Positions 50,587-56,573 of a stretch of DNA of 64,000 nucleotides are shown one piece after another. The translations under genes and the position numbers were made by a program. Position 1 is the first letter of the stretch, and the number at the start of each line of letters is the position of its first letter. Under the pieces are notes generated by a model, which saw only the letters and a list, made by a program, of their open reading frames with translations, was not told the origin of the DNA and ran no database searches. Source of the DNA: an uncultured Clostridia bacterium (GTDB lineage Bacteria > Bacillota > Clostridia > TANB77 > CAG-508); contig CALXHG010000001.1 of assembly GCA_944388045.1 (NCBI GenBank), positions 62,001 to 126,000 on the forward strand, read 5' to 3'.

Positions 50587-50795
50587 TTGATAAATTTTTA
50601 TATATTAATAATGAATAAATTTCTCGACTCAATACGAAAATATAAGAACTTCTAAAATAATTTTATGGCACCATTTCACTTAGTCCTCGCTGGCGCTCGA
50701 CGCGAACATTTTCCATAAAATTAATTTAAGAAATTCTAAATTTTCTCCAATCATATTCGAAATTTATTCATTATTAATATATAAAAATTTATCAA
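50587..50795. repeat. Palindromic repeat element, copy A
   Basis: The outer arms 50587-50622 and 50760-50795 are a perfect 36-bp inverted repeat. The centre has a GC-richer core around CTCGCTGGCGCTCGACGCGA (about 50688-50707), which closely matches copy B at 55279-55507. The element fills the gap between gdpP and mgtE and is not protein-coding. The arms differ from those of copy B while staying perfect within the copy. Confidence 0.85.
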
Positions 50796-50805
50796 TACTT
50801 TGCAA

Positions 50806-52140
50806 TTAAATGTGCATAATTGCTGTTGCAATTTGGAAATATACCAAAATTGAGAATATGTCAACAAGTGTTGTTATTAAAGGTGTTGCCATAATTGCTG
50901 GGTCTAATTTCAATTTTTTTGCAAGCATAGGTAATAAACATCCTAATGCTTTTGATAAAGCTACAGTTGCTATTAATGTAAGTCCAATAACAATTGCTAA
51001 TTGTATATCATTATATTGAATCATTATTCTAATTCCATTTACAATTGCAAGTGTAATTCCAACTATTATAGAGACTCTAAATTCTTTCCATAATGCTTTA
51101 AAAATATCTTTAAGTTCAATTTCATCTGTTGCAAGTCCACGAATAATTAATGTTGAACTTTGTGAACCACAATTTCCCCCAGTTCCCATTATCATTGGAA
51201 TGAATGCAACTAGCAAAGGAACTGCTGCAAATGCTTGCTCATAATTTGTTATAATTCCCCCTGTTATAGCTGATGATAACATTAACACTAAAAGCCAAAC
51301 TATTCTGTTTTTTGCATGATGAAATACTGAGGTTTCAAAATATCCTTTTTCACTTGGACTCATAGCTGCCATTTTTTCAAAGTCTTCTGATGTTTCATCT
51401 TGTAATACATTAATAGCATCATCAACTGTAATAATTCCAACTAGTCTGTTTTCTGTATCTACAACAGGTATAGCATACATATCATATTTGTCAAATAATT
51501 TTGCAACATCTTCTTGGTCTTCTAATGTATTTACAGAAATTACATTTGTAGTCATTAATTCTTTTATAACTTGTTCTTTTTTTGATATTAATATTTCTTT
51601 TATATCTATAATTCCAAGTAAAACTCTGTTTTTGTTTAAAACATAACAATTGTATATTGTTTCTGAATCAATTCCAATATCTCTAATACGTTGTAATGCT
51701 TGTTCTACTGTCATTGTTTCTTTTAAATCTATAAATTCTGTTGTCATTATGCTTCCAGCACTATCTTCTGGATATTGTAATAATTCATTTATTATTTTTC
51801 TATCTTTCGCATTTACAACTTTTAAAATCTTTTTTACTACATTTGATGGCATTTCTTCTATTAAATCTACTGTGTCATCCATAAATAGCTCATTTATTAT
51901 TCCTTTTAATTCTGTATCTGTTAAATCTTGAATTAATTTTTCTTTCATATATGGTTCCATATACGAAAATGCCTCTCCAGCTTGTTCTTTTGGTAAAATT
52001 CTAAATAGTTTTACTACATTTTCTTTATCTAAATCTTCTAAAATAGTCGGTATATCTGCACTGTTAACCATTTTTAATTTTTCTTTTAATACATTATATT
52101 TCTTTTCTTCTAGTAATTTTTCTACTTCTTCTACTTCCAT
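50806..52140 (-). CDS. mgtE: Magnesium transporter MgtE
   Basis: 444 residues, full length. N-terminal superhelical Mg-sensing domain (about 1-125), CBS pair (about 130-250, with TVEQALQRIRDI and VVDTENRLVGIITVDDAINVL), connecting helix, and five membrane helices (about 280-440) ending PLITTLVDIFSILVYFQIA, which contains the conserved Asp of the pore. It gates Mg2+ uptake by cytoplasmic Mg2+. Confidence 0.96.
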   Translation of the reverse strand: MEVEEVEKLLEEKKYNVLKEKLKMVNSADIPTILEDLDKENVVKLFRILPKEQAGEAFSYMEPYMKEKLIQDLTDTELKGIINELFMDDTVDLIEEMPSNVVKKILKVVNAKDRKIINELLQYPEDSAGSIMTTEFIDLKETMTVEQALQRIRDIGIDSETIYNCYVLNKNRVLLGIIDIKEILISKKEQVIKELMTTNVISVNTLEDQEDVAKLFDKYDMYAIPVVDTENRLVGIITVDDAINVLQDETSEDFEKMAAMSPSEKGYFETSVFHHAKNRIVWLLVLMLSSAITGGIITNYEQAFAAVPLLVAFIPMIMGTGGNCGSQSSTLIIRGLATDEIELKDIFKALWKEFRVSIIVGITLAIVNGIRIMIQYNDIQLAIVIGLTLIATVALSKALGCLLPMLAKKLKLDPAIMATPLITTLVDIFSILVYFQIATAIMHI

Positions 52141-52266
52141 TTGATATACCTCCTCTAAATTTTTTACACAATTTTAATTTTGAAATGTGGAAACTCTAAT
52201 ATTTAAAAATCATCTTTTTGTTATAGAAAATCAAATATTTTATTATTTGTTCTATATATTGTTATT

Positions 52267-52296
52267 GCCATTTTGAGTTATATAACTTAAAATGGC
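52267..52296. repeat. 30-bp near-perfect palindrome
   Basis: GCCATTTT (52267-52274), G, AGTTATATAACT, T, AAAATGGC (52289-52296). It lies between dfx and mgtE and probably forms a cruciform or terminator-like hairpin. Confidence 0.55.
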
Positions 52297-52333
52297 ATAT
52301 TTTACTAATATAAAAATTTACTTTAACAAATAT

Positions 52334-52708
52334 TTATTCAACAACTTTTTTCCATAGACCATGTTTATTACAATATGCATAAATTTCTGTACCTGGATGA
52401 TAACAGAATTTTGCAACAGCTTCTTCTCCTGGTTTAAAATATATTGTTTTTTCTTTATTTTCATTTTTAAATGTTATCCACTCTATATAATGTTCTTCTT
52501 CCATTACATGATTTACTTTTACAATAATTTTATTATCTTTAATTTCATATGTTGGAACATGTTTTTCTACTGCTGCATCAACTGAATTTGGCACTAATGT
52601 TTTCATTTCTTCTCCACAGCATTGAATTCCACCTTCACAATTACAATCTTTTAAAACTTTTACAATTGCACCACAATGTGCACATTTTTTAATTATTAAT
52701 TCTTCCAT
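52334..52708 (-). CDS. dfx: Superoxide reductase (desulfoferrodoxin)
   Basis: 124 residues from ATG 52708; an ATG at 52720 directly abuts the ribosome site AAAGGATG. The N-terminal desulforedoxin-like centre has KCAHCGAI and QCCGEEM (4 Cys). The catalytic non-haem iron ligands are in KHVPTYE, VNHVMEEEHYIEW (His residues) and FCYHPGTEIYAYCNKHGLWK (Cys, His). It reduces superoxide to peroxide without producing oxygen, an enzyme of anaerobes. Confidence 0.93.
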   Translation of the reverse strand: MEELIIKKCAHCGAIVKVLKDCNCEGGIQCCGEEMKTLVPNSVDAAVEKHVPTYEIKDNKIIVKVNHVMEEEHYIEWITFKNENKEKTIYFKPGEEAVAKFCYHPGTEIYAYCNKHGLWKKVVE

Positions 52709-52850
52709 AATTTTCAACATCCTTTCTATTTTTTATATCAAAATATTATTTGTTTTTATATTAATTCTAATTAATATTTTCTATACTTTTTACAAAAAAT
52801 ATAATGATATTTCTATCAACATATTTTAGCACAAAGCTTTTAAAAAAGCA

Positions 52851-52883
52851 ATTATTAATATATCAAAATTTCTCACTGAACTG
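52851..52883. repeat. Solo arm of the palindromic repeat family
   Basis: This 33-bp stretch matches the right outer arm of copy B (55473-55504) with one difference (TATATC versus TATATT), ending TTCTCACTGAACTG. No core or left arm follows. It is either a deletion remnant of a full copy or a terminal fragment. Confidence 0.7.
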
Positions 52884-52908
52884 GAACATAATAAAAACAT
52901 TTTGTTAT

Positions 52909-54867
52909 TTACCTTTCTTCATCTTGTGATTTAATAAATTTACTATCTTGTTGATAGCTATTATCTTCTTTATTAAAATCTACTTTATATTTTAAATTTT
53001 CTCTAAATTGGTTCTGCTTATTTTTAACATATTGCAAATCTTGTTCTTGTATTGAAGAAAAAATTTGTGATATATTTAAATTTGTTTTTTGGGAAAATAT
53101 TTGCTTTAGCCTTGATGTTATTTTTGAAAATCTTGTTGGTTTATTTTGCTTTACTGGTATTAAACTCTTGTTTTCTTCTTGAAATTCCATTTTATAAGGT
53201 TTATCTTTACTTAATTTAGTAGGCAAAATTTCTCCCTTTTCTATTACTAATAATGTTAATTCTGTATCTGTTTGTATATAAATTTCTCTATCTAAAATTG
53301 TTATCTGAGCATTAGGGCAACCTAGTTTTACTTGAGATACTAATTGATTAAACTCTTTAATTATATTTTGAGAATCTTCATCAGTTTCTAAAGTAAACTC
53401 AAATTCATCTTCAAATTTGTCAGAAATTTTATCACTTGCTGTATGTTTGTTTTCAAAATAGTCTCCTTTTCTTGATACAGGTACTCCATCTTTTAAAATT
53501 ATTGGAATTGTCTTGCCATTATAAGTTGCAGTTGTTATAGAAAATTGTGAAATGTCATTATCTTCTAAATTATTTGTCCTTACTAAATAATCCAGTAAAA
53601 TTTCTGTTTGTTTTGTATTCTTTCCTCCTAATCCTAATGCAACTTGTTTAATATATTTATCTAAAAAAGAACTTTCTATCCCTGTCATATTATCATTTTT
53701 ATAATTTAATGCTTCAATTTTACTTCTAAATTTTTCTAGAGAAAATGTTCCTTTTGCTAATTCCTCTTGAGTAATTTTTGAAACTTCTTCCATATATTTT
53801 TTTTCAAAATCAGGAAATTGTTTTAAAAAAGTTATTATAGATGATTGTTCATTTTGTTCACTTTCTTGAGAAGAATCAATTCTAGTCATTATTAGTGATT
53901 TCAAATCTTTAAATTTTTTAAAATCTCCATCAGAAATATTTCCCTCAACAGACATTCTTTCAAAGTCCTTTTGAAGATATTTTTCATAAATTGTATTTTC
54001 TAAATCTGTTGTTAAAGCACTACGGCTTTCTTCTGAAGAATTTATAATTTCATCTATTTTCTGTTTCCTTTCAGCTAATGTAGGAATATCATCCATATTT
54101 TGTTTATCATAAACTGGGCAGTCTGCTTTTAATTTTTTTATTTTTTCTTCAATCTCTTGCTCAGACAAATTTGCATTTAAGCATTCTTCTAGTACAAAAT
54201 TAATTTCATAAAGTTGCCAAGTCTGTTCGCCAAATAAAAATAATGAATCTCCTTTTGCAAGAAATGTAACTAGCTCTTTTGGCTGCATTTGTAATATGTT
54301 TCCAATATTTTTCTTAATGTTACCTTTTCCAAGTTTCATTACATTTTCTTCACCTATTGCAATCTCTAACTCTTTAAATAATGTTGTCAAGTCATTATAT
54401 CCTGTATGATCCAATCCAGAAACTTTAGAACTAATCCAATTGGTTAATCCTTCATTTAGTCCCCTTCCCAAAGTTTTTCCTTTTGAAAGTTCTTCTAATA
54501 AACCTGTACTTACATTTCCAATTCCGTATTTTATCCTTTCAAATGGTGTTCTTTTTAATGTAGCATGAACAGATTCATGTATAATAGAAAATAAAAGTTT
54601 ATTATCATTTTCTATATCTTCTATTGTTAAATTTGAATCATCATTTTTATTTTTTGTACAAAGTGTTATTGATTTGTTAATATTATGATAATAGCCTAGC
54701 CTATCTAATTTATATTCATTTGTGTAAACTTTCTTTAAGTTTTGTGCTAATCTTCTTTTAGCAAAATTTCTTCCATATACTTTTTCAAAAAGCTTATTTG
54801 AATCAATCATTGATGCAATCGTATTTTTTATATATTGTTCAACCTCTTTATTTTCTACTTTTTCCAT
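52909..54867 (-). CDS. Large protein with HExxH metallopeptidase-like motif, unknown family
   Basis: 652 residues. Near the N-terminus, SIIHESVHATLKRTPFE carries HESVH (about 97-101), followed about 35-45 residues later by GRGLNEGLTNW, which could supply the third zinc ligand. This is the gluzincin-like pattern HExxH..NEG. The rest is helical and charged, with a basic C-terminal tail (about 570-652). There is no signal peptide or membrane segment. It follows a 77-residue partner gene. Protease activity is inferred from the motif alone. Confidence 0.65.
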   Translation of the reverse strand: MEKVENKEVEQYIKNTIASMIDSNKLFEKVYGRNFAKRRLAQNLKKVYTNEYKLDRLGYYHNINKSITLCTKNKNDDSNLTIEDIENDNKLLFSIIHESVHATLKRTPFERIKYGIGNVSTGLLEELSKGKTLGRGLNEGLTNWISSKVSGLDHTGYNDLTTLFKELEIAIGEENVMKLGKGNIKKNIGNILQMQPKELVTFLAKGDSLFLFGEQTWQLYEINFVLEECLNANLSEQEIEEKIKKLKADCPVYDKQNMDDIPTLAERKQKIDEIINSSEESRSALTTDLENTIYEKYLQKDFERMSVEGNISDGDFKKFKDLKSLIMTRIDSSQESEQNEQSSIITFLKQFPDFEKKYMEEVSKITQEELAKGTFSLEKFRSKIEALNYKNDNMTGIESSFLDKYIKQVALGLGGKNTKQTEILLDYLVRTNNLEDNDISQFSITTATYNGKTIPIILKDGVPVSRKGDYFENKHTASDKISDKFEDEFEFTLETDEDSQNIIKEFNQLVSQVKLGCPNAQITILDREIYIQTDTELTLLVIEKGEILPTKLSKDKPYKMEFQEENKSLIPVKQNKPTRFSKITSRLKQIFSQKTNLNISQIFSSIQEQDLQYVKNKQNQFRENLKYKVDFNKEDNSYQQDSKFIKSQDEER

Positions 54868-54892
54868 AAATTCTCATATCCTTTGTATTTAT

Positions 54893-55126
54893 CTAATATA
54901 TAATATCACTAGGTTTTAATTCATACAATTCTCTAAGTTTATTTAATAATTTTTCATCTTTAATAGGTATTAATTCATTATTCTCAATTTTATAATATAA
55001 ATATTCAAAATTATCTTGAGTTATTTTTATTGCTTGAATATATTTCTCATCATTTAATGTTACTTTGGTAATGTAACTTCCTTTATTTTCTTTTTCTAAT
55101 TTTTCTTTTATTTTTAATATATCCAT
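54893..55126 (-). CDS. Small protein upstream of the HExxH gene
   Basis: 77 residues (MDILKIKEKLEKENKGSYIT..., to LYELKPSDIIY), beta-rich in the middle, with no recognised family. The gap to the 652-residue gene is 25 bp, so they are probably one operon and possibly a functional pair. ATG 55126 has GGAGAT upstream. Confidence 0.65.
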   Translation of the reverse strand: MDILKIKEKLEKENKGSYITKVTLNDEKYIQAIKITQDNFEYLYYKIENNELIPIKDEKLLNKLRELYELKPSDIIY

Positions 55127-55278
55127 AACAAATCTCCATCTCTCTTTCGTAAAAAAACATATATAAAGTTTTAAAAGTATTATTTAAACCTATTATACTT
55201 TTTAATTAATCTTATCATATAGATTTTTATCTTTCAATAATTTTTATAAAATGTTATTTAAAAAAAGCCCTAATAGCG

Positions 55279-55507
55279 CTACAGTTCAGTGAGAAATTTT
55301 AATATATTAATAATTGCATAAATTTTTCGACTCAATACGGAAATATAAGAATTTCTAAAATAATTTTATGGCACCCTTTCACTTAGTCCTCGCTAACGCT
55401 CGACGCGAACATTTTCCATAAAATGATTTAAGAAATTCTAAAATTCCTCCAATCGTATTCAAAATTTATTTATTATTAATATATTAAAATTTCTCACTGA
55501 ACTGTAG
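55279..55507. repeat. Palindromic repeat element, copy B
   Basis: The outer arms 55279-55313 and 55473-55507 are a perfect 35-bp inverted repeat beginning CTACAGTTCAGTGAG. The inner core (CTCGCTAACGCTCGACGCGA at about 55388-55407) matches copy A with only a few changes. It ends one base before the mnmA stop codon, so an mnmA transcript would run into a very long hairpin and may end there. The flank 55127-55278 holds no other gene. Confidence 0.88.
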
Positions 55508-55508
55508 C

Positions 55509-56573
55509 CTAACAACTATTTTTTTGAATTTTACCTCCACCAACAACAATATCATCAATATAAAATACAGCAGATTGCCCTGGAGTAATTGATTTTTGTG
55601 GTTCTTTAAATTCTACTTTTATTAAATTATCTTTTTGATTTATTATTGCTTTAGCTTCTTTTGAAGAATATCTTGTTTTTACATTAACTTCTAAATTTTC
55701 TGGTATTTTATCAAAAAGCAATAAATTTATATTTTCAACAATTAATTCTTTTTGATATAATTCATTTTGAGTTCCTACTACAACTTCATTTTTTTGTGGA
55801 TTAAGTCCTAATACAAACAAAGGTTCTGAATATGAAATACCTAATCCTTTTCTTTGTCCTATTGTGTAATTATATAATCCTAAATGTTTTCCTAGTATTT
55901 CCCCTTTTAAAGTAACAATGTTTCCTTGTTTTTGTTTTAAATTTGAATTTTCTTCTAAAAACTTTTTGTAATTTCCATCTGGTATAAAACAAATATCTTC
56001 ACTATCCTTTTTTTCTGCAACATCTAAATTATTTTGTCTTGCAATATCTCTAATTTGTTCTTTATTTTCAAAATCTGATAATGGAAATAAAATATGTTCT
56101 AACAATTCTTGAGGAATATTCCATAATACATAAGTTTGGTCTTTTTTTAAAACTTTAGATTTTTTTAATACCCATTTTTTGTATTTTTCAGAATATTCTG
56201 TTTTTGCATAATGTCCTGTAGCTATGTAATTACATCCTAATTCCTTAGCTTTTTCCCACATATATCCAAATTTCATATATTTATTACATTCTATACATGG
56301 GTTAGGCGTTTTACAGTCCGCATAACATTTTATAAAATCTTGTATTACATATTTATTGAAGTCTTCTTTGCAATCACAATAATAATGTGGAATATCTAAT
56401 TTTTCACAAACTTTTTGTGCATCTAGATATGTACTTGTTTCTTGAAATTCATTTTTAGAAAAAAAGTCTAAAGTTATTCCAATTGGCTCATATCCTTTTT
56501 GCTTTAATAATAAAGCTGTTACACTACTATCTACTCCACCACTCATTCCAACTAATACTTTCTTTTTATCCAT
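55509..56573 (-). CDS. mnmA: tRNA-specific 2-thiouridylase MnmA
   Basis: 354 residues. PP-loop VGMSGGVDSSVTALLL (about 8-23). The two catalytic cysteines are in KTPNPCIECNKYMKFG (about 97) and SEDICFIPDG (about 193). The C-terminal beta-barrel ends PQKSITPGQSAVFYI. It thiolates the wobble uridine of tRNA-Lys, tRNA-Glu and tRNA-Gln using sulfur from a desulfurase such as the SufS encoded nearby. It is directly downstream of sufU. Confidence 0.97.
   Translation of the reverse strand: MDKKKVLVGMSGGVDSSVTALLLKQKGYEPIGITLDFFSKNEFQETSTYLDAQKVCEKLDIPHYYCDCKEDFNKYVIQDFIKCYADCKTPNPCIECNKYMKFGYMWEKAKELGCNYIATGHYAKTEYSEKYKKWVLKKSKVLKKDQTYVLWNIPQELLEHILFPLSDFENKEQIRDIARQNNLDVAEKKDSEDICFIPDGNYKKFLEENSNLKQKQGNIVTLKGEILGKHLGLYNYTIGQRKGLGISYSEPLFVLGLNPQKNEVVVGTQNELYQKELIVENINLLLFDKIPENLEVNVKTRYSSKEAKAIINQKDNLIKVEFKEPQKSITPGQSAVFYIDDIVVGGGKIQKNSC

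Follow-up and report, generated by a model that had tools for sequence, protein, structure and literature searches.

Hairpins that stay perfect while their sequence changes are a standing puzzle, for which the usual answer is slow compensatory mutation. Two long palindromic repeats, copies A and B, raise this question in the window (the whole stretch of 64,000 nucleotides analysed here, from an uncultured Clostridia bacterium). The initial annotation had described their arms as exact within a copy, and they are perfect in both, but each arm is 37 bp long rather than 36 bp (A) or 35 bp (B). As it had also claimed, the arm sequences are unlike between the two copies and the interiors are alike, with 88% identity over a 131-nt common block. 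The interior motif CTCGACGCGAAC has two sites in the window, in copies A and B only, where 0.03 would be expected. Neither interior contains an ORF of at least 100 aa, in agreement with the view that no gene lies inside. Both copies had been placed directly against a stop codon; this holds for copy B, which abuts the mnmA stop (55509), but copy A is separated from the mgtE stop (50806) by 10 bp. The identities of mgtE and mnmA were confirmed by Pfam. The solo arm previously assigned to 52851-52883 is genuine, with slightly wider limits (Table 1), and is also solo in the close relative G079. A 652-aa ORF at 52909-54867 (minus strand) has no Pfam match. The target duplication of copy B is presumed, by comparison with the clean 8-bp duplications found at other copies.

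Table 1. Positions in the window of the two hairpin copies, their parts and the solo arm.
Feature	Position	Strand	Observation
Copy A, whole	50587-50795		
Copy A left arm	50587-50623	+	37-bp inverted repeat, exact, 100% complementary
Copy A interior (core)	50624-50758	+	Inverted relative to flanks in G079 (L001 vs L100 alignment)
Copy A right arm	50759-50795	+	37 bp, 100% complementary to left arm
Copy A conserved core internal-loop motif, left (CTCGACTCAATACG)	50623-50636	+	Family-wide conservation
Copy A core inner stem, left side	50639-50668	+	Inverted repeat, covarying helices; partner ~50713-50742
Copy A conserved internal loop and variable apical hairpin (CACC..TTTC ... GAACATTTT)	50669-50712	+	
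Copy A conserved core internal-loop motif, right (CTCCAATCATATTCG)	50745-50759	+	Family-wide conservation
Copy B, whole	55278-55508		
Copy B left arm	55278-55314	+	37 bp, 100% complementary to right arm
Copy B interior (core)	55315-55471	+	Inverted relative to flanks in G079, sequence identical (L013 vs L092)
Copy B right arm	55472-55508	+	37-bp exact inverted repeat
Copy B presumed target duplication, left (CTAATAGC)	55270-55277	.	6/8 match to 55509-55516
Copy B presumed target duplication, right (CTAACAAC)	55509-55516	.	Overlaps mnmA stop codon
Solo right-arm remnant (ATTATTAATATATCAAAATTTCTCACTGAACTGGAAC)	52851-52887	+	Same remnant in G079, 98%

The proposal that A and B belong to a repeat family was borne out by a search of the whole genome, which returned approximately 16 full copies and approximately 20 partial ones, many of the latter at contig ends; 218 distinct copies were collected in all. 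Of 98 genomes sampled in the genus, 52 carry the family; searches of 10 other genera of the order gave none, and every named relative carrying it is a MAG or metagenome bin of an uncultured Clostridia bacterium. No similar element was found in the viral contigs, plasmids and phages searched, and comparison with Rfam, at the gathering score and at E up to 10, gave chance-level matches only and no known RNA family. The elements are about 200-250 bp long, non-coding, dispersed and almost always intergenic; only one of the 165 copies with enough flank overlapped an ORF of at least 90 aa. Where an element lies between tandem genes, its median distance from the upstream stop is 37 bp and from the downstream start 130 bp. 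Within the limits of these searches the family is new; its mechanism is of a known kind.

Several features mark these elements as mobile. Across much of the genus their outermost bases read near GTTACARTTCACAG, a terminal repeat that occurs in variants such as GTTCCAGTTCAGT in this genome and is missing from a minority of copies, copy A among them. The pattern GTTACAATTCACAGC, allowing at most one mismatch, gave 23, 16 and 14 matches in three genomes (53 in total), often as inward-facing pairs approximately 220-250 bp apart, and the reversed control pattern gave none; the exact pattern was found in 67 of 211 genus genomes. Exact 8-bp target duplications flank the copies at L284 (TTCCTATA), L287 (AATTTCTA), L120 (TACCAGTA) and L012 (GTGATAAA), several further copies have duplications matching at 7 of 8 positions, and several others have no recognisable target duplication. 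G079 carries unoccupied counterparts of the L002 and L008 sites, and no clean one for L004 or L011. The family therefore has four of the properties by which a MITE is recognised: short, non-coding and dispersed elements, shared terminal repeats, target duplication, and presence or absence at orthologous sites. Very short inward-facing terminal-repeat pairs of 72-77 bp (G086:C18:37212-37283, G020:C33:5931-6007 and G194:C62:380-455) are probably arm-only remnants.

Such elements would be moved in trans by a DDE-type transposase. An IS256-type transposase (PF00872) was considered as the autonomous partner and rejected, as the ends of these transposases in the genus read AACTGTGTAAATT or AAGTGTGTAATTTT and not GTTACAATTCACAG. 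No transposase with the family's terminal repeat was found among the IS256-type transposases of the genus, and none of the ORFs beside unpaired terminal repeats was recognisable by eye as a transposase.

If the arms were fixed terminal repeats, all copies would be expected to share one arm sequence, and they do not: in pairwise comparisons of 16 copies from this genome, cores differed by 2.7% on average and arms by 35%, a 13-fold contrast. Across 165 copies the median longest perfect run was 24 bp when an arm was compared with its own partner and 6 bp when partners were swapped. The arms of one relative's copy, L122, extend to about 95 bp.

To follow changes in place, orthologous copies were identified through their flanks, which in G079 are approximately 98% identical to those of this genome. 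The four-way comparison of arms covered 19 species pairs, some loci being represented in more than one pair. Thirty substitution columns had changed identically in both arms, where approximately 1.1 would be expected if the arms changed independently; the arm co-variation for which the initial annotation proposed a test is therefore present. Four arm indel events (7 indel columns) were mirrored and one was not. The L216/L064 pair illustrates this pattern, with five substitutions and a 4-bp deletion each present in both arms. Base 55279, in the left arm of copy B, is T in G079 and C in this genome, and the right arm carries C in either species; this is consistent with a likely correction of the left arm from the right arm, extending the match one base outward. 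Another 37 columns across the 19 species pairs had changed in one arm only. Arm correction is thus incomplete, and the earlier statement that the arms do not evolve by simple point drift needs qualification: the mirrored changes argue for it, but ordinary drift is also present.

The interior had been inverted between unchanged flanks at 6 of 17 loci. Both window copies are among them (L001/L100 and L013/L092); relative to G079, flanks and arms are collinear and only the interior is reversed. A further inversion relative to G079 was seen at L027/L342, and other relatives provided inverted interiors at L060 (versus L216 and L064), L144/L070 and L369/L077. L005, L012, L014, L016 and L031 are not inverted relative to their orthologues. 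Two further candidates, L059/L118 and the L088/L119/L193/L242/L069 group, were rejected as inverted orthologues and left out of the count, since their arms or core types differ and they may have arisen by independent insertion. Flipped loci had longer perfect arms, 25-38 bp compared to 9-38 bp at unflipped loci (Mann-Whitney p = 0.019, 16 loci). Every genome is a metagenome assembly (MAG), and the flips are known from assemblies alone; however, the perfect runs are all shorter than 55 bp and would be resolvable by assembly graphs with k of at least 55, which favours real flips.

Template switching between inverted repeats is reported to homogenise the arms and invert the spacer, the inversions occurring on arms that are perfect and longer (PMC8604942), and it has also been put forward as the origin of compensatory changes in RNA hairpins (PMC8794818). 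Mirrored arm changes together with an inverted core constitute this published signature, and both were found here. In the proposed sequence of events, an inserted element would fold on itself at DNA replication and DNA synthesis would switch template between the two arms. Such a switch could copy one arm onto the other, leaving the arms complementary while the arms of each copy drift separately; a switch that runs across the interior would leave the core inverted in place. Of the routes suggested in the initial annotation, gene conversion within a copy or hairpin-primed copying is supported by the mirrored columns, the four mirrored indels and the flipped interiors.

Alternatively, flipping of the core and conversion of the arms might both result from homologous recombination, or from a site-specific invertase, at the arms. 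The inversions seen in assemblies do go with longer perfect arms. Identity over 25-38 bp is short for RecA-dependent recombination, however, and arms that differ between copies by 35% on average provide no single common recombination site, on which ground an invertase-driven inverton was rejected. In favour of this route, inversion has been reported for the Correia repeat enclosed elements of Neisseria, as cited in PMC10969869. We regard recombination or an invertase as a doubtful explanation. Arm-arm recombination would leave much the same footprint, and sequence alone does not separate it from template switching; we infer that the copying is replicational template switching. Taken together, copies A and B are quite probably members of a genus-restricted, non-autonomous, hairpin-shaped MITE-like family whose arms are copied and whose core is flipped by template switching.

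Template switching in place does not account for all of the contrast between copies. At orthologous loci divergence was 3.7% in the core, 10.3% in the arm and 6.7% in the flank, an arm/core ratio of approximately 2.8 compared to 13 within the genome, so that in-place copying alone is insufficient. Either exchange between copies keeps their cores alike, or transposition brings additional change to the arms. Core changes at L014/L095 and L001/L100 that have no matching flank changes fit exchange among copies, although mixing of near-identical cores by short-read assembly could also have produced them.

The core behaves differently from the arms. In all 70 sampled cores, the minus strand (opposite CTTAGTCCTCGC) folds better than the plus strand. 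When 48 diverse cores were set against the predicted structure, 96.6% of its cells were paired, a level that neither shuffles nor slides approached; 27 of 42 core pairs had changed on both sides, and none of 500 shuffles reached the observed values. On this strand G-T exceeds A-C, by 156 to 35 cells in non-fixed columns and by 123 to 34 in distinct contexts. It appears that selection maintains the fold of one core strand, as RNA or as folded single-stranded DNA, and does not act in this way on the arms; the core probably owes its conservation to a single-strand function of one of these two kinds. The core plus strand is co-directional with the flanking tandem genes in 90 of 127 cases, and the better-folding strand is therefore usually antisense to those genes.

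These core data are what would be expected if the whole hairpin were a functional RNA whose arms were kept complementary by independent compensatory point mutations, that is, by selection at the RNA level alone. The arms, however, show no minus-strand wobble preference. Their G-T and A-C mismatches stood at 36 to 28 in the 165-copy set and at 47 to 30 on the plus strand, the latter in the opposite direction to the core (p = 0.07); mismatches of about equal frequency are predicted by copying at the DNA level. Stepwise compensation also explains four exactly mirrored indel events poorly and does not predict inversion of the core, making RNA-level selection alone improbable.

Several related repeats and core variants were observed. 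Elements at L031:1074-1373 (reverse strand), L090:2070-2330 and L012:2790-3060, in this genome and G079, have the same core design (CTCTTTCACTC.GACCCTC ... GAGTACCGTGAACATTCCTC) with other ends, which read TACTGGATAATG...CATTATCCAGTA in some copies. L284, L287, L276 and L294 (G034, G038) share the family's terminal repeats and conserved loop motifs and have a second core type, with apical GAGCCTCTCGCTATTCCCGCTTCC. A separate repeat family, TTTTAAAGTCCGCGTCATTGTTCG...AATTTTAC..GTAAAATT, occurs in the L006 flank and at more than 20 places in G079, and is nested inside two hairpin elements, in the interiors of L285 and L291. The very long, nearly perfect arms of L122 (G061), L073 (G057) and L074 (G020) include motifs resembling GGGGACGGTCC or TTTTTGACACTGCCCC, which gives the impression that the core took over its ends from another repeat. 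The recruitment of new ends, also raised in the initial annotation, is only suggested, by the few relatives in which different ends (TACTGGATAATG or GGGGACGGTCC-like repeats) enclose a core of this design.

The GGGGACGGTCC-like repeat motifs in the arms of L122, L073 and L074 might also indicate that a conserved core inserted into pre-existing palindromes such as terminators, the arms then being those of the target and not of the element. Target duplications lie outside the arms, however, the copies share GTTAC ends, and the unoccupied L002 and L008 sites have no palindrome, leaving this origin of the arms very hard to credit. A more speculative possibility, to which we give little weight, is that the core is a selected single-strand element moved between mobile ends (GTTAC-, TACTGGATAATG- and GGGGACGGTCC-type), kept uniform by exchange and switching strand through arm copying and flipping; the elements would then be dispersed invertible RNA modules.

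Template switching in yeast genes (PMC8604942) and rRNA genes (PMC8794818) likewise homogenises arms and inverts spacers, is favoured by long arms and yields reversible inversions. The spacers described in those systems span a few bases (2-5 substitutions in yeast genes, rRNA loops of 4-8 nt), whereas here approximately 110-160 bp are inverted in a mobile family of bacteria. The Correia repeat enclosed elements, or NEMIS, are likewise small intergenic MITEs with terminal repeats, with structured transcripts of their own and, as far as the report cited in PMC10969869 goes, in-place inversion as here. They differ in target duplication and ends, and here it is the arms that turn over between copies and the core that is the conserved part. 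Correia termini carry TA (PMC2229807). Membership of that family was rejected on the 8-bp target duplication and the GTTAC...GTAAC ends found here, which are not a TA-ended Correia terminal repeat. ERIC, RUP and the QMITE2 element of Coxiella share a length of 100-250 bp, intergenic location, long stem-loops and target duplications (PMC2229807); QMITE2 has terminal repeats of 23-29 bp, a core of 113-145 bp and direct repeats of 7-9 bp. No sequence relation to these elements was shown, and their hallmark is the terminal repeats, whereas the copies described here have just their outermost bases and the core in common.

In this family two known replication accidents, arm copying and core flipping, are visible together across many natural copies. 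Since many of these are orthologous, with mirrored changes and a flipped interior, the share of template switching relative to compensatory mutation becomes measurable. The wobble-pair test, which separates the core with its selected strand from arms with no strand preference, carries a warning: covariation alone does not prove that a bacterial hairpin family functions as RNA.
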